A DNA stretch of 39,112 bases from a virus: positions 1-39,112 of IMG/VR virus record IMGVR_UViG_3300033182_001404; one strand, given 5' to 3'. A program made the translations under genes and the position numbers. This document shows positions 1,954-34,782 of the stretch, one piece after another. Positions within the stretch are counted from its first letter, which is position 1; every line of letters begins with the position of its first letter. The notes beneath the pieces were generated by a model. That model was not told the DNA's origin. It saw nothing but the letters and a program-made list of their open reading frames with translations, and ran no database searches.

Positions 1954-4900
1954 CCAGTGCAATTGCTCTCATGTCTCTGACCTTCGGAACCACAGTTGCA
2001 TTATTTGAGGTCATCACAATCTTGACCGCAAAAGTCTTGAATTTGTCATAGGTAACATTTTGTGATGTATAGGTGATAGAATCGGTTGAAGTCTTATAAA
2101 TAAACTCACGAATATCCCCTTCAGCACCAGAGTAAACTGAAGAAGGTGTTTCTTGTGTCATAAGAACATAATTCTTGTCATCAAAGTCTTGTGGATCTTC
2201 ATCAGATTTGACTTTGTAATACACATGAACACCTGTACCGAGTGGTTTATACGCATTGATAATAACTTTGAGATCTGATGCATCAAAGCCATCTTCAAGA
2301 GTCACTCTTCTTGAGATGTATTTTGCATTGATATTTCCCCCTCTTGCAGAATCTTCACCCACTACATTTGCAACAGCAGTGATACCATTGACACCATCAC
2401 TTGGTGCTGAAATTGTAATAGTTGGTGTGGTCAAATAACCAGAACCTGCATTGACAGGAACCACATTTGCAACAAACCCACTAACAGTGCCGACTTTGAA
2501 GAAGGTATTTGATCCAGTTGCCAATGTATTGGTATGGGCCGCATCTTGTGCAATACTACTTGAGATGACACAAGTTCCGTTTGTAAAGACACCACTGTTG
2601 AACAATGAAGTATTTGCACTAGTCCTAATGGTAATTGTAGCCGTATTCTTACTGTCATCACTTCCAACAAATGTTTGACTCGTAATGACCCCATACGCAG
2701 CATTGTCTGTCTGTCCTCCATCATTAGTAACAGTTCCACTAGCATTATTGGCAACAACTATCACACCCTCACCAACTACAAATTGGCCTGGATTTGAAGG
2801 TCCGACAGTATAGTCAGCATTTGCTGATTCTAAGCCAGACCCTACAGTCATAGTTACTTCTACGAAGACATTAGTTGTTGCTGTAGCCCCAGTAGTCAAA
2901 TCTGGTGCTGAAACTGTTGCTGTATATGCTGTTGGTGATACATTTGTATAACCAGCACCAGTGGTTGTGACCACAATATCATTTGCGGAAAGACCAGCAT
3001 TATCAACATTATTCTCTACTACAATCAAATTCAATCTATCCACATCAATAACAGGAGATACATGCCCATTTGAAGTGGACATTGTTGCATTGATATTGAA
3101 CATACCATTTGTACTTGCTGTCAATTGTCTTGTACTAGTCAAATTGATATTTTGTTCAAGACTAAATGGTGTAAATCCTAAAGATGTATTTGAAGTATTG
3201 AAAGATTCATATGCAATATTCATTGTAGTATTACTAAACTCAATAGTGGAACCTGATGCTTTGAAGGTTTGGTACTGTACATTGGCAGTGTTACCAGATG
3301 CCCCATTTGCATGAGTGATAAACTTAGCGTAGTTATTTGCTCCACCTGTTCCAGTAAAATTACATCTATTCATTCGGAACATCAAGAACTCTTCTTTCTT
3401 CGCTTCCCAGACACCAGCATTCTGTGGTCTGAAGAAAGACCCAATAAATGGTTGCTTGGAAATCTTTCTTGTTGTTCCAGTTGAGTTATCACCGTGAGAA
3501 GCAGTGTAGAGTTTGTACTCTGGACTGTTTGAAATCACCACGATTGCATATTCATCAGGAGTCAAGTACACTGGTGAATCAAACGTGAAGGTGGTTGAAG
3601 TAGTCGTGTTACTTGATGTTGCATTGGCCACAGAAGATGTTTGTACTTTATCAGGATTCAATGTAACTTCAGAGAACGGAAGAATCAATGAGCTACTTGG
3701 AAATCCGTTGACTATTGGCCGAATCTGAACGGTCACAGGGAGATAAGTATCTTTTGCACTAAAGAACAAAGTTACATCTCTCATGAATACACCCATAGGG
3801 TAAGTACTTCCATCAACAGTGAATGATTGTGCCATTGGATTGACCCAATTTGTCTGAGAAGTCTGCCGAGTGGTAGTGTCAGTAACGATCTCTTCACTGC
3901 CTAAAGATTCTCTTCGGACAATTGGTTCTCTGGTTGAGATCAATAATTTTTCTCTGTTTTGAAGAACACCTTTTGCCTTGAAGAAAGTTTCTGCTACAGT
4001 AGTAGTTGAAGCCAGTTCATTATTTGCCTGATCGGTGATTCTTATAAGACGATCACCAGTTCTAAAAGTTCCTGCTGGGATATCCACATCACCTGCAATA
4101 GTACCGTTGTCGTCTGATTGCATAATTGAAAAACCGCCACTCAAAATACCTCTTGTATTGGCAACAACCGAACCGATAGTTCCATTTGCTCCACTAGTCA
4201 ATCCAGTTACCACATTTGATGTTGCAAAACCAATAGAAGAATTTGAAACTCTATTGTTTTGTGAGGATACAGGAGATACTGCCGTTGCACCACTATTACC
4301 AGAGATATTTGTAATAAAGAGAGTTGCAACATTACTTACCGTGTTTGATGCAATTCTCACAATACCTCTGTTATTAGCAGAGTCCCGAACGATTTCACCC
4401 TCTCTAAATGCTCCATTTGCACTTGATAGAACCAACTTCTTTGCGGGTTCTGTGTTGGCACTCATATGAGTTGAACCAACATAAACATAGACATTGGTCA
4501 GAGGTTTTAGTCCTTTTGCGGAGAATGAGACTCTTTGTGAACGTACATATGGGACTACACTCATGTCAAGTTTTTTATTACCTACTGTCTTGACAATAGT
4601 CTCAACTGGATCATCAGATGTGATACCAAATTTAGATTTATTTTGACTAATTAGTTTGGTACTTCTCGTTCCAACTGAAGTTGATCCTACATTTGAAACA
4701 GAAGTATTTGGTTCTGGATTTATTTGTTTTCCAGACCAATTCACACTCCAATCGTCCCATTGTGTTCCAAATCCTTTTCTACTTTCATCTGTATTTGCAC
4801 TCAACACCCAATTATCATGATGCCCTTCTACATTAGTCGTTACGTCTGGTTTAGTAGTTTCATCAAACCATGTATCAGAAGGTGGATCAAGTTTCATTGC

Positions 4901-30252: not shown

Positions 30253-32757
30253 ATGTCTGAAGAAGTTACTATTGTAAACTCAAAAGATTTAGCTAATAAC
30301 ATTGGAAATTTAGTATCAGTTCAATTTAATAACAGTATCAATAAACTGATAGCAAATCAAAATGCAATATCTTCTACTCAAAAAATATTAGATCTAGAGT
30401 CCTCAAGAGAACAAGCAATTTTGTTTCAAAGGATGTTATCATCTTTAGAAAATTTTAAAGCAAATATTACTTTAGATGCTAAAAAAGATGGTGATACTGG
30501 ACTATTGGGCTATTTGATAAAAGGTCTCGGTCTTCTAGGTAGTGGTATGTTAGCATTCATGGGTGGCTTTGCTTCAGGGTATTTTGAAAACTTCAAAAAA
30601 ATAATCATTGATCCCATATTCAAGGCACTTGAACCAATAATTGATCTGGTGAAAAATGCAGTAACTAAAGTAGGAGATGCATTTAAAGCAGATGTTCTAG
30701 ATCCATTTAGTAAAAAAATTGATGATATTAAAGCATTATTCGGCCCAGATGGATCAATAGGAAAATTCTTCACTAAAGTCAAAGACTTTTTCAACACAAA
30801 ATTACTAGAACCTATAGCAACTAAAATTGATGATATTAAAGCACTATTTGGCCCAGATGGATCAATAGGAAAATTCTTCACTAAAGTCAAAGACTTTTTC
30901 AACACAAAATTACTAGAACCTATTAGTTTGGCAATAGATGATATTAAAGCACTATTTGGCCCAGATGGATCAATAGGAAAATTCTTCACTAAAGTCAAAG
31001 ACTTTTTCAACACAAAATTACTAGAACCTATTAGTTTGGTGATAGATGATATTAAAGCATTATTCGGACCAGATGGATCAATAGGAAAATTCTTCACTAA
31101 AGTCAAAGACTTTTTCAACACAAAATTACTAGAACCTATTAGTTTGGTGATAGATAATATTAAAGCACTGTTTTCAGCAGAAGGTGGAACAACAGTCGGT
31201 AAAACATTAAATAAAATTAAATCATTTTTTACTGGCAGTTTTGGAAACACGATTACTACAGTGATTGATTACTTCAAAGAATTCAAATTTGAAGATTCCT
31301 TTATCGGTAAGACTTTATCTAAAGTCAAAGGATTTTTTGGGACTACTGCAGGTGAAGGTGGTATCTTTTCCAAAATTACTGATTTCATTAGCCCACTGAC
31401 AGATTTCAAACTTCCAGATGGGGTATCTAAAATTTTAGGCGGTATCGGAAAAATATTTGGTAAAGTATTTTTTGTGGTTGATTTGTTTATGGGATTCTTT
31501 GCCGCATTTGAAGCATTTGAAGAAACGGAAGGAAGTCTTGCAGATAAAATTATCGCAGCAATCAAAGCATTTATTGATGAAGTCATATTTGGTCTTCCGA
31601 ACTTTTTGATTGATCTCGTTGGTAAGGGTGCTGCAGCAATCTTCAAATTATTCGGTCAAGAAGATGCAGCAGCCAACATAGAGAAGGTAACTGAAAACTT
31701 TAGTTTAATGGACGTTCTATCAGAAAATTTTGAAATCTTAGTAAATGAACTTCCTAACTGGATTGACAAAATATTTGATTTTGATTTCAAACTCCCAGAT
31801 GGGGTATCTGAAATTTTAGGTGGTATCGGAAAAATTTTCGGTAAAGTATTTTTTGTGGTTGACTTGTTTATGGCATTCTCTACTGCATTTGAAGCATTTA
31901 ATGAAACGGAAGGAAGTTTTGCAGATAAAATTATCGCAGCAATCAAAGCATTTATTGATGAAGTTGTATTTGGTCTTCCAAACTTTTTGATTGATCTTGT
32001 AGGGCAGGGTGCTGCAGCAATCTTCAAATTATTCGGTAAAGAAGATACAGCAGCCAACATAGAGGAAGCAACTAAAGACTTTAGTTTAATGGACGTTCTA
32101 TCAGAAAATTTTGAAAAATTATTAGATGGAATTTCTAAATTTTTTGATAATTTATTCAGTATAGATGTAAATTCAATCATCAAATCTATTCCTGGCGGTG
32201 AAACTTTGATGAAATTATTTGGTGCTGGTGAATCAAGTAAAGCAAGAACTCAATTAGCATCAATCGGTTTAGAACAAGGATCAACTGATTTTGGTAAATG
32301 GGATGTTGATATAGAAGAACTAAGAAATAAAATTCAAGGAATGAATAAAGAACAACTTGAAATGATACAAAATAACATAGCTAGTTTAGCCATGTCAGAT
32401 GAGATTGATAACCTTAAAGAGGTTGAGGAAGTACTTGCAGAAAAAGCAAGAGGGTTTAAAACTGGTGGATTAGTTGAAGGGACGGGATTAGCAGTGCTTC
32501 ACGGGACACCATCTCAACCTGAACTGGTACTAGACAATCAGGCTACTGCCGTATTTATGAAAGCCGCACAATTACTAACAGGTTCTCAAAATATGATAAT
32601 GTCACAATCTTCACAACCAGTGGTTATCAACAACATTGATAACAGTCAGAGAAACCCTGTCATTTCCAACCAGGCAACTCAAATTAAAGTTCCTGACTCT
32701 CCACGACAGGGTGAGACTACTCTGGCCATGATGAACATGGCCTACGCAATGGGTTAA
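30253..32757 (+). CDS. Tail tape measure protein with internal tandem repeats
   Basis: 834 residues. A hydrophobic Gly-rich segment lies at about 83-110 (LLGYLIKGLGLLGSGMLAFM), as in tape measures. Residues 157-300 are four near-identical 36-residue repeats (IDDIKALFGPDGSIGKFF core) plus a diverged fifth. Residues 385-638 are two copies of a 127-residue unit (FKLPDGVSKILGGIGKIFGK start). The C-terminus (FKTGGLVEGTGLAVLHGTPS, then QPELVLDNQA) is typical of marine T4-like tape measures. It follows the gp26/gp51 chaperone frame directly. At about 1.5 angstrom per residue the protein would span roughly 125 nm. It is the functional counterpart of T4 gp29 (590 residues). Confidence 0.85.
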   Translation: MSEEVTIVNSKDLANNIGNLVSVQFNNSINKLIANQNAISSTQKILDLESSREQAILFQRMLSSLENFKANITLDAKKDGDTGLLGYLIKGLGLLGSGMLAFMGGFASGYFENFKKIIIDPIFKALEPIIDLVKNAVTKVGDAFKADVLDPFSKKIDDIKALFGPDGSIGKFFTKVKDFFNTKLLEPIATKIDDIKALFGPDGSIGKFFTKVKDFFNTKLLEPISLAIDDIKALFGPDGSIGKFFTKVKDFFNTKLLEPISLVIDDIKALFGPDGSIGKFFTKVKDFFNTKLLEPISLVIDNIKALFSAEGGTTVGKTLNKIKSFFTGSFGNTITTVIDYFKEFKFEDSFIGKTLSKVKGFFGTTAGEGGIFSKITDFISPLTDFKLPDGVSKILGGIGKIFGKVFFVVDLFMGFFAAFEAFEETEGSLADKIIAAIKAFIDEVIFGLPNFLIDLVGKGAAAIFKLFGQEDAAANIEKVTENFSLMDVLSENFEILVNELPNWIDKIFDFDFKLPDGVSEILGGIGKIFGKVFFVVDLFMAFSTAFEAFNETEGSFADKIIAAIKAFIDEVVFGLPNFLIDLVGQGAAAIFKLFGKEDTAANIEEATKDFSLMDVLSENFEKLLDGISKFFDNLFSIDVNSIIKSIPGGETLMKLFGAGESSKARTQLASIGLEQGSTDFGKWDVDIEELRNKIQGMNKEQLEMIQNNIASLAMSDEIDNLKEVEEVLAEKARGFKTGGLVEGTGLAVLHGTPSQPELVLDNQATAVFMKAAQLLTGSQNMIMSQSSQPVVINNIDNSQRNPVISNQATQIKVPDSPRQGETTLAMMNMAYAMG
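30721..31152 (+). repeat. Four 108-bp direct repeats in the tape measure gene
   Basis: Repeat starts at 30721, 30829, 30937 and 31045 give an exact 108-base period (36 codons); a diverged fifth unit starts at 31153. The first about 90 bases of each copy are almost identical, with changes such as gcattattcgg versus gcactatttgg. The differences cluster in the last 15 bases (atagcaactaaa versus attagtttggca). This indicates recent duplication or conversion. Confidence 0.92.
31405..32166 (+). repeat. Two 381-bp direct repeats in the tape measure gene
   Basis: The unit starting at 31405 is repeated at 31786 (127 codons each). Both copies encode a hydrophobic core with FGKVFFVVDLFM and DKIIAAIKAFIDEV and the end NFSLMDVLSENFE or DFSLMDVLSENFE. 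Copies differ at scattered codons and are older than the 108-bp repeats. The second copy degrades toward its 3' end. Confidence 0.85.
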
Positions 32758-33668
32758 GATTCCTGAGCAAGTTTCTGGAAGTAACTCAAAGTTTCTTCCT
32801 CTTCTTCGTCAGTGTCTTCTGCAGCAGGGGTGGGGGTTGAGGAAGTAAACGGAGTCCCACCTTCAAACGGAACATCCTCTTCTTCAACCACTGTTTTAGA
32901 TTTAGGCTGAGACGGTGGTTGATCACTCAGACCAAGTACCCGATCCAATTTAGCCTTCAGTTCCTCATAGGTCTTGAACTTGTCGGCAGACACCAGCTCC
33001 TTCAGAGAATGTTCTGACTTCCAAATTTCCTCAAGACGATCATCGTCATCAAGAAGAGCCCCAGGCGAATCAAACTCAGACTTGTCATAGTTTGAGTATC
33101 CCTCAACCTTACGAATCTTGAGTTTGAAGTTTGCACCTTCCCACAGATCAAATGGATTGATAGGGTCTTCATCCTCAAACTGAGGGTTCATCAAATCGTT
33201 GATCTTGTCAAAAATCTTCTTACCAAACTTGTAAAGAAAAACTTGACCTTCGTTCTGAGGGTTAGCAGGGTCTTTGACCACATATACATTTGAGATGTAG
33301 GTCAGACGCCGTTTCTGTTTTCGTGCAATCTCTTTGTTGGCCTCAATCCCCGAATTCCAAAGGACCGAGTTGTGTTCAGATACGGGATCTTTTTGCCCAA
33401 GAGTGGTCAGAGAGTTCTCAATGTACCAACCGCCTGGACCCTGAAACCCGTGATTCCAGAGTCGTGCCCAAGGAAGGTCTTCCCCCTCTGGTGCTGGGAG
33501 AAACCGAATAACAGCATAACCATTACCCGCCTTGTCCAACTCTGGACGCCAGTAACGGTTATCATCTTCTCCGTAGGTATTGGGATTTGCAATCTTCTCA
33601 GTCTCTTTGATCAGACTAGAGAGGTTGGATTTTCGTTGTTTCTTCATGTCTGCAAAAGATGAAGCCAT
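32754..33668 (-). CDS. 32: Single-stranded DNA-binding protein gp32, without zinc ligands
   Basis: 304 residues (T4 gp32 has 301). MASSFADMKKQRKSNLSSLI is the basic N-terminal self-association region, and YAVIRFLPAPEGEDLPWARL then WNHGFQGPGGWYIENSLTTL start the OB core. FKLKIRKVEGYSNYDKSEFD is the second core motif. The C-terminal 50 residues are acidic (AAEDTDEEEEETLSYFQKLA), the usual partner-binding tail. The protein has no cysteine: the T4 zinc-binding segment is replaced by QKDPVSEHN, so the zinc site is gone. It is convergent with the tape measure (3-base overlap) and has its own sigma70-like promoter. Confidence 0.93.
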   Translation of the reverse strand: MASSFADMKKQRKSNLSSLIKETEKIANPNTYGEDDNRYWRPELDKAGNGYAVIRFLPAPEGEDLPWARLWNHGFQGPGGWYIENSLTTLGQKDPVSEHNSVLWNSGIEANKEIARKQKRRLTYISNVYVVKDPANPQNEGQVFLYKFGKKIFDKINDLMNPQFEDEDPINPFDLWEGANFKLKIRKVEGYSNYDKSEFDSPGALLDDDDRLEEIWKSEHSLKELVSADKFKTYEELKAKLDRVLGLSDQPPSQPKSKTVVEEEDVPFEGGTPFTSSTPTPAAEDTDEEEEETLSYFQKLAQES

Positions 33669-33706: not shown

Positions 33707-33735
33707 AGTATAACTTGTATTCGTATGTTTGTCAA
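33707..33735 (-). promoter_or_regulatory. Sigma70-like promoter of gene 32
   Basis: On the minus strand TTGACA (33735-33730) and TATACT (33712-33707) are separated by exactly 17 bases, close to the bacterial sigma70 consensus. The -35 box overlaps the glutaredoxin stop codon. Transcription would start near 33700, about 30 bases before the gp32 ATG, which has AAAGG upstream. It fits early expression by host RNA polymerase. Confidence 0.75.
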
Positions 33736-34007
33736 CTGTGTTTGTCGTCTACCTCCAATCTTTTTTCTAGTTCTGGAAATCCCCCAATGAACTCACCGTC
33801 CATAAAAATCTGGGGTACGGTTTTACTATTTGTGACAGGAAGAACCTTACCAAATAGTTTTTTATCAGCCTGAATATACATGTACTGAATGTTATGTTCT
33901 TTCAACAAAGCCTTTGCTGATTCACAAGCAGGTCATTGTGGAAACATAAAGTGACCAAGTATAATGGTCCCCTTTGAAAAATCAACTTCGTATTTGATAT
34001 CTATCAT
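33732..34007 (-). CDS. Glutaredoxin with in-frame UGA at the first catalytic Cys (candidate selenoprotein)
   Basis: Reading from ATG 34007 gives 24 codons (MIDIKYEVDFSKGTIILGHF, MFPQ), then TGA (33935-33933), then P-A-C-E-S-A-K and 60 more codons to TGA at 33734-33732, 91 residues if UGA is read. The downstream part is plainly glutaredoxin: SKTVPQIFMDGEFIGGFPEL carries the TVP cis-proline and GG motifs, and PACESAKALLKEHNIQYMYI is the active-site helix. UGA stands exactly where the N-terminal Cys of CPxC belongs. The start overlaps the gp33 stop (ATGA), and the gene lies between gp33 and gp32, so it is transcribed with them. Alternatives are a nonsense mutation, a base-call error (one change from TGT/TGC), or readthrough as another residue. 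Glutaredoxins reduce disulfides, including in phage ribonucleotide reductase. Confidence 0.72.
33902..33920 (-). promoter_or_regulatory. Possible bacterial SECIS-like stem-loop after the glutaredoxin UGA
   Basis: RNA from 33920 to 33902 can pair UCAGCAAA with UUUGUUGA (7 Watson-Crick pairs and one G-U) around the loop GGC. The loop starts 20 nt after the UGA and begins with G, within the spacing and loop rules I recall for bacterial selenocysteine insertion elements. The loop is short and the pairing A-U rich, so chance is possible. Confidence 0.4.
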
Positions 34008-34228
34008 AGCGGTAACTTTGTAGTTTTGGGTAGAAAATGTAGTTCCTCAGCTTCATCCCGAATCTGAGCCTTCATCTTCGTATTTATCAGAGGTGCTACA
34101 GCCTCTGGTTCCATCTTGTGCTCATCACAGTAGTATAAGATGGAATCAATATAACTGAGGTTGGTCTTCTCAACAATATCACTAATCTTGTGATAAAATT
34201 CAGAAGCAGTTTGGATTTGTAATGCCAT
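34004..34228 (-). CDS. 33: Late transcription coactivator gp33-like
   Basis: 74 residues, shorter than T4 gp33 (112) but like the short gp33 of marine T4-like phages. The pattern SDIVEKTNLSYIDSILYYCD, then MEPEAVAPLINTKMKAQIRD and EAEELHFLPKTTKLPL, with the terminal LPL, fits that family. In T4, gp33 bridges RNA polymerase, the gp55 sigma and the gp45 clamp to activate late promoters, and TATAAATA sites are present in this window. Start overlaps the ClpP stop by one base; the stop TGA overlaps the glutaredoxin start and is followed in frame by TAG. Confidence 0.7.
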   Translation of the reverse strand: MALQIQTASEFYHKISDIVEKTNLSYIDSILYYCDEHKMEPEAVAPLINTKMKAQIRDEAEELHFLPKTTKLPL

Positions 34229-34782
34229 TAGTTCAACTCCTTTACTTGGTCACAGATTCCGAGTTTCTTTGCATCCTTCGCCGCAATCCAAACATCGTGG
34301 GCGGGCAATAGATACTTCCTGATCTCTTTTTCAGTCAAGCCAGTACATTTCTTGTAGTGTTTGATCATTCTAGAGGTAGTAAGTTCAAACTCTTTCTGTA
34401 CTGCAAAGAGTTCATGCTCTTTACCATATGTCCCCCAAGAGAACTGGTGAGAGAGAATAGAGGTATTGGGAGTCAGTGTCCTGCTCCCTTGTTGACCAGC
34501 CATAAAAATGGCAAGACCTGCAGAGGCTACAACACCGAGTCCAGTGGTCTTGACTGGAATAGATGACCCACGCATCACATCAATTAGTGCAAAGGAAGCT
34601 GAAAGATCTCCACCATATGAGCATATGACCAGATTCAATTCTTTGTGTTTGTTCTCACTTTTGAAATTGTTTTCTAGAATCCACTCAATAGCAGTCCGAC
34701 ATGAACCAATTTCAATGTCATCCATGAGTAGGTGAAAACCAGCATCATCTAAACTGTTGACTTCTTTGTCTTCACTTGACAT
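34228..34782 (-). CDS. clpP: ClpP-like serine protease
   Basis: 184 residues. The ClpP catalytic layout is present: Ser87 in TGLGVVASAGLAIFMAG, His112 in TSILSHQFSW, and an Asp, probably D163, in LPAHDVW; LNLVICSYGGDLSASFALID gives the SYGG oxyanion strand. The ending WIAAKDAKKLGICDQV matches the SAEEAVEYGLVD region of ClpP. Cellular ClpP has about 195-210 residues including a propeptide; here the N-terminus is short. No ClpX or ClpA partner is in the window, so it might use a host ATPase or act alone, for example on capsid or regulatory proteins. It lies in the gp33/gp32 group, not with head genes. Confidence 0.85.
   Translation of the reverse strand: MSSEDKEVNSLDDAGFHLLMDDIEIGSCRTAIEWILENNFKSENKHKELNLVICSYGGDLSASFALIDVMRGSSIPVKTTGLGVVASAGLAIFMAGQQGSRTLTPNTSILSHQFSWGTYGKEHELFAVQKEFELTTSRMIKHYKKCTGLTEKEIRKYLLPAHDVWIAAKDAKKLGICDQVKELN

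Follow-up and report, generated by a model that had tools for sequence, protein, structure and literature searches.

A candidate selenoprotein glutaredoxin with an in-frame UGA at its catalytic cysteine codon in T4-like phages

Glutaredoxins with selenocysteine (Sec) in a UxxC motif have been described in a limited set of bacteria, according to the available passages of a review of prokaryotic selenoproteins (PMC13188914), and glutaredoxin is listed among the selenoproteins of ocean metagenomes in the part of that study at hand (PMC2398784). Among viruses, poxviruses have Sec glutathione peroxidases (excerpts of PMC8310308); these are likewise viral selenoprotein genes relying on the host Sec machinery, in eukaryotic viruses, with a different enzyme family and a eukaryotic SECIS. 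Earlier hints of phages touching the Sec pathway are the tRNASec genes of Basilisk-like phages (PMC6145125) and of huge wastewater phages (PMC10747093), both taken from excerpts of these papers. Those phages have tRNA genes, whereas the phages described here instead have a candidate selenoprotein gene, grxU, with no tRNA gene found in the two contigs scanned for them. The words 'phage', 'virus' and 'viral' are absent from the examined text of two reviews of prokaryotic selenoproteins (PMC13188914, PMC9312934). Rare viral selenoprotein copies may have been seen yet left undescribed, because the GOS study reports, in the passages available, no or very few viral sequences for other metalloprotein and selenoprotein families (PMC9402790). 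No phage selenoprotein was among the literature matches listed, mostly open-access papers, and priority is therefore not proven; as far as the literature searched shows, grxU would be the first gene of this kind to be described from a bacteriophage.

The bacterial selenoprotein glutaredoxin of the review excerpts (PF00462; PMC13188914) and the grxU product are alike in family, in having Sec first in UxxC and in a hairpin downstream of the UGA, a likeness that rests on descriptions rather than on direct sequence comparison. They differ in that grxU is carried by T4-like phages and in that the gene set of the five contigs other than the window contains a class II ribonucleotide reductase and IscU/IscA. 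Phage CPxC glutaredoxins belong to the same protein family, and the closest Cys relatives share the gene order; unlike grxU, they have Cys in place of Sec (90 of the 92 loci compared) and lack a hairpin at the SECIS position (none in 23 rows). Another 293 phage glutaredoxin records were found besides, and the codon comparison rests on the 92 loci. The gene is best classed as that of a candidate selenoprotein glutaredoxin whose carrier is of a new kind, and we hold it highly likely that grxU encodes a phage selenoprotein of the UxxC type. This reading draws on the reading frame, the predicted fold, the repeated occurrence of the UGA, the existence of Cys relatives with matching gene order, a shared hairpin and the gene context.

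The window, that is, the whole stretch of DNA that was analysed, is an IMG/VR record of 39,112 bases with a T4-like gene content (gp32, gp33, baseplate wedge, tail tube, head closure and DNA end protector families; T4-type genes by PHROG: phrog_224, 254, 438, 232, 230, 218, 429, 45 and 150). grxU (33732..34007, minus strand) lies between the genes for a gp33-like late-transcription regulator (34004..34228, minus strand; phrog_254) and a gp32-like single-strand DNA-binding protein, its downstream neighbour (32754..33668, minus strand; phrog_224), unlike its Sec relatives, which lie close to a ribonucleotide reductase gene. Upstream of gp33 is a protease-like gene (34228..34782, minus strand) with a head maturation protease as best PHROG, which ATP-dependent protease families match too. 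Retention of a glutaredoxin gene by gp32 relatives was considered and rejected, with none in the 80 best gp32 loci, 54 of them with gp33 (flanks of up to 3 kb). A promoter-like TTGACA-17-TATACT site (11/12; 33707-33735, minus strand) overlaps the grxU stop and faces gp32, and sites of this kind numbered 3 in the region against 1.8 expected. Elsewhere, among the T4-like structural genes, an 834-residue ORF (30253-32757, plus strand) had no PHROG match at 1e-5.

The preliminary description had presented this gene as one glutaredoxin on both sides of a TGA, with UGA-Pro-Ala-Cys in place of CPAC and a 4-base ATGA overlap with gp33, and each of these points was borne out. A single glutaredoxin frame runs on the minus strand from 34007 to 33732 through the UGA at 33935-33933, which occupies the first catalytic Cys codon (UPAC for CPAC); two residues separate it from the second Cys of the UxxC motif (TGT, 33924..33926, minus strand). 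The start codon ATG 34007-34005 shares bases with the gp33 stop TGA 34006-34004, and the final grxU stop is TGA 33734-33732. Translated through the UGA, the window protein scored 51.8 bits against the Pfam family Glutaredoxin (PF00462; cut-off 22.9), compared to 56.4 and 44.3 bits for the Sec proteins of the contigs L001 and L257 described below. An AlphaFold model built with 18 aligned relatives has the glutaredoxin fold (pLDDT 84.9, pTM 0.75), and ranks 1-7 in a comparison with the PDB were all glutaredoxins. In this predicted model residue 25, the UGA position, immediately precedes helix 26-37; we take the residue directly before the first helix to be the usual place of the nucleophile in the glutaredoxin fold.

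The UGA recurs in relatives. A first IMG/VR search for relatives yielded 32 loci, and the contig IMGVR_UViG_3300033182_001315 (L001) carries UGA at the same glutaredoxin codon as the window. Over 92 loci, which include the best 80 of one larger search, the catalytic codon was TGT in 62, TGC in 28, TGA in one and CGT in one, giving Cys codons in 90 of 92 within this part of the family. The same codon is also UGA in a second Sec clade, made up of L257, L350, L353 and L355 and drawn from four IMG/VR datasets, bringing the carriers to six contigs, the window included, in two protein clades. The alignment of homologues at TGA against TGC or TGT thus found both states. The four members of the second clade belong to a single phage group and are 95 to 99.9% alike where they align; per 1600 bases around the UGA, L353 differs from L350 at 5, L355 at 3 and L257 at 104 positions, and the UGA is kept in both L257 and L350 despite those 104 differences. 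On the protein tree the Sec label requires at least two changes, which would correspond either to two Sec gains or to a single gain followed by reversion to Cys. The row L176 is in this tree, for which rows were realigned, and was left out of the synonymous-codon and hairpin comparisons. The scattered stops that the preliminary description had named as a sign against the gene were looked for, and no Sec copy contains a further in-frame stop. In one phage glutaredoxin of the same family (L013:5064-5066) the first catalytic Cys is replaced by Arg (CGT), with the second Cys retained.

Pattern and profile searches of IMG/VR returned these carriers among chance matches. UPxC followed by QADK matched 48 stretches, 47 of them by chance and one being the L001 contig, a pattern too strict to reach the L257 clade; UPAC-E-AK matched five, four by chance and again L001 as the real one; and a profile from the first two Sec proteins found the L001 contig alone. 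With UPxC..PQIF there were at least 120 matches; L257 alone was real among the 80 listed loci that were translated, and the remaining 40 are covered by the pattern count only. TGA followed by 63 N and ADKxxFGK gave nine stretches, five real and four by chance. In the genome contig collection, an exact pattern from part of the 68-nt tract described below had no match, and a profile search found only the Cys relative L169. A search of 393 genomes of the class of the MAG holding L169 found no copy beyond that MAG itself.

The window and L001 genes differ at 51 of 243 compared bases (79% identical), and all 51 differences fall in 175 bases outside a tract of 68 nt (33868..33935, minus strand), which starts with the first base of the UGA and is identical in both. 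Where the two proteins have the same residue, the same codon was used at 20 of 20 positions inside the tract and at 20 of 45 outside (Fisher p 5e-6; Met, Trp and UGA left out). The resulting inside-outside contrast of 0.56 compares with a mean of 0.01 (sd 0.12, maximum 0.30) in 103 Cys control pairs containing neither window nor L001; identical runs in control pairs reached at most 65 nt, in pairs with 92% overall identity. The first 14 nt of the tract are shared without change by both Sec clades. Over the 31 nt after the UGA, the identity excess over the rest of the gene averaged 0.18 in nine Sec-Sec pairs, which are not independent, compared to -0.02 (maximum 0.17) in 138 Sec-Cys pairs and -0.06 (maximum 0.09) in 190 Cys-Cys pairs; the best Sec-Cys pairs reach the level of most cross-clade Sec pairs. 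Cross-clade pairs used the same codon at 6 of 8 positions inside and at 14 of 36 to 19 of 37 outside, a synonymous excess no higher than the maximum of 0.36 among 193 control pairs. Strong conservation is therefore seen between window and L001, whereas across the Sec clades the signal appears only suggestive, because the synonymous excess stays within the control maximum and the nine Sec pairs are not independent.

Rather than SECIS constraint, the 68-nt identity could reflect a recent short recombination patch, with the UGA possibly still read as Sec. The identity continues about 34 nt past the hairpin, to nt 68, which is more than a SECIS needs, and within the 10.2-kb L001 locus only this gene aligns to the window by blastn, a few other genes matching weakly at the protein level. 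The part beyond the hairpin may have come from recombination. For the tract as a whole we think such an origin rather unlikely, as its left edge lies exactly at the UGA and the far-diverged second clade has retained both the first 14 nt and the hairpin at an unchanged spacing.

The bacterial SECIS model, in the passages available, sets the apical loop at 3-9 nt and the upper stem at 4-16 bp, requires a G in the first two positions of the loop, places the loop 16-37 nt after the UGA and limits the minimum free energy (MFE) to -7.5 kcal/mol or lower (PMC13188914). Window and L001 share a hairpin of 8 bp with loop GGC, 20 nt from the UGA (window 33902..33920, minus strand; loop 33912-33910), and the L257 clade has one of 6 bp with loop GGA, also 20 nt from the UGA. 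All six Sec rows lie within the model's ranges for loop, stem, G and spacing. None of the 23 non-Sec rows (22 Cys, 1 Arg) has a hairpin at the SECIS position; L019, a non-Sec row, has a weaker one at another place. MFE values were borderline against the -7.5 limit, for which the model passages state no folding length: -7.2 (48 nt) and -8.2 (55 nt) for the window, -7.0 and -7.4 for L257 and -9.6 for L350. Some Cys rows reach equal or lower values in other folds (L009 -10.6, L005 -9.1). Among the three distinct Sec sequences, two pairs changed on one side yet still pair, four are invariant and none changed on both sides; the L257 clade lacks the two lowest pairs. Sliding the partner strand by 1-3 columns lowered the paired cells from 83% to 50% or less, and a shuffle control of the pairing was uninformative with only three distinct rows. 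The tract was no more stable than its dinucleotide shuffles (z -0.26, -0.09, 0.02), synonymous-codon resampling reached the window hairpin in 329 of 20,000 trials, and equally stable hairpins occur at 372 of 9,913 codons of the window genes. Near grxU, Rfam gave nothing above cut-offs and eight weak matches, none of them SECIS. The hairpin alone is modest evidence; its fixed place, its GG loop and its restriction to UGA copies, taken with the rest, make it persuasive. If it acts as a SECIS, the host Sec machinery (SelB with Sec-tRNASec) would bind it during infection just downstream of the UGA, and selenocysteine would be inserted at the nucleophilic position, with the second Cys two residues on.

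The UGA might be read as Trp, Gly or Cys through a suppressor or opal tRNA, or be passed by leaky read-through without Sec. Points for this are that an opal tRNACys could possibly be supplied by the host and that UGA followed by C, the context in the window, is a leaky stop. Set against them is the ordinary use of TGA in the window: as had been noted at the outset, TGA serves as a normal stop elsewhere, ending 7 of the 26 genes examined, gp33 included (TAA 15, TAG 4). General UGA recoding shows no sign in the window, because TGA is an ordinary stop, TGG is used (81 of 11,517 codons) and neither the window nor the L001 contig yielded a tRNA gene. A scan of TGA sites in five phage sequences gave 237 sites with open flanks, of which 87 were judgeable (at least two spanning hits). 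Eight of the 87 were flagged as Cys/UGA, five being the glutaredoxin UGAs and the other three falling in shadow frames of grx or in frames antisense to iscU or iscA; the unfiltered scan is noisy because frames shadowing conserved genes also align. UGA at a redox Cys was thus confined to grxU among judgeable sites, and general read-through needs no conserved hairpin limited to UGA copies. We regard decoding as another residue as improbable.

Still less probable is that a nonsense mutation or sequencing error produced the UGA in a dying or misread gene. The window is a single contig known from assembly, and the CGT codon of L013 indicates that the catalytic Cys can be lost; yet the same UGA codon stands in six contigs of two clades, with the remaining frame intact in each, and the synonymous sites after the UGA are more conserved between window and L001 than elsewhere, the opposite of decay. 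Hardly credible at all is a regulatory device in which a short leader peptide stops at the UGA and a truncated product is made from a second start: there are an in-frame downstream ATG (M43) and a terminator-like stem upstream of the UGA (33969-33953; 1 found, 0.4 expected), but the M43 product would, on the predicted model, begin only past the first strand, active site and first helix, and the frame is open throughout in the Cys relatives. The candidate selenoprotein reading put forward in the preliminary description is supported, through the recurrence of the UGA, the Cys relatives and a hairpin confined to UGA copies, beyond what a single UGA would allow.

In L350 the gene order is ThyX, class II ribonucleotide reductase (NrdJ), grxU, a small ORF, a RuvC-like gene, an ORF, a permuted tmRNA, an ORF, IscU, IscA and IscA; these names are our reading of the sequences, with NrdJ and IscU supported by annotated phage matches. 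The grxU start overlaps the NrdJ stop (TAATG). The contigs of L257, L353 and L355 start within NrdJ and then follow the L350 order as far as they extend. The L001 contig has the L350 gene set (NrdJ 81% and IscU 80% to L350), with two ORFs separating NrdJ and grxU. Many Cys relatives share the L350 order, among them L025, a Cys copy (TGT) whose NrdJ is 89% like that of L350. What looks like a single locus holds Sec in some phages and Cys in others, as Cys relatives such as L025 share the gene order of the Sec phage. In the Sec relatives the gene adjoins, or is two genes after, the class II ribonucleotide reductase, so the grxU product probably acts as a thiol-disulfide reductant in phage dNTP synthesis; the enzyme may serve this reductase in phage DNA synthesis, and the gene may move between phages. 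We infer Sec insertion, a Sec-using host and the ribonucleotide reductase as partner. IscU and two IscA-like genes occur in T4-like phages (L350, minus strand, 3485-4574; L086:16986-18567) downstream of the ribonucleotide reductase and glutaredoxin genes. Permuted tmRNAs are likewise phage-borne (L257:2383-2799; L350:4940-5356, minus strand; L086:19563-19841; further Cys relatives), and their tag peptides, e.g. ANNDDYSSAQVALAA, differ among relatives.

Three hints at the host disagree, and no assignment was retained. The permuted tmRNA of the L001 contig also passes alpha_tmRNA (52 bits, cut-off 50), and the phage NrdJ is nearest to that of Puniceispirillum phage HMO-2011 (65%). The Cys relative L169 is on the phage contig PAAV01000031.1, binned in the MAG of Chloroflexi bacterium NAT137 (G007), in which SelA (532.6 bits), SelB (318.5) and tRNASec (61.8, cut-off 47) are above cut-off, the tRNASec model also passing in 5 of 14 control genomes. 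A Sec-positive MAG with a binned phage contig that carries a Cys relative is a weak hint at the host.

With Sec at the catalytic Cys, these phages would need a host that reads one stop codon as selenocysteine. If this is true, the phage depends on the host pathway for the 21st amino acid for a catalytic residue, and the UGA would be a translational lock, the enzyme being made only in hosts with the Sec pathway. Tentatively, and at somewhat less than even chances, lytic T4-like phages may support their nucleotide synthesis with a selenoprotein reductant of their own and exchange Sec for Cys at one locus when passing between Sec-using and Sec-less hosts. L350 and L025, a Sec/Cys pair in the same gene order, offer material for the study of Sec gain and loss, and phages are a possible source of some ocean-metagenome glutaredoxin selenoproteins. 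The grxU codon would then allow host physiology to be read from phage DNA alone, as a marker.
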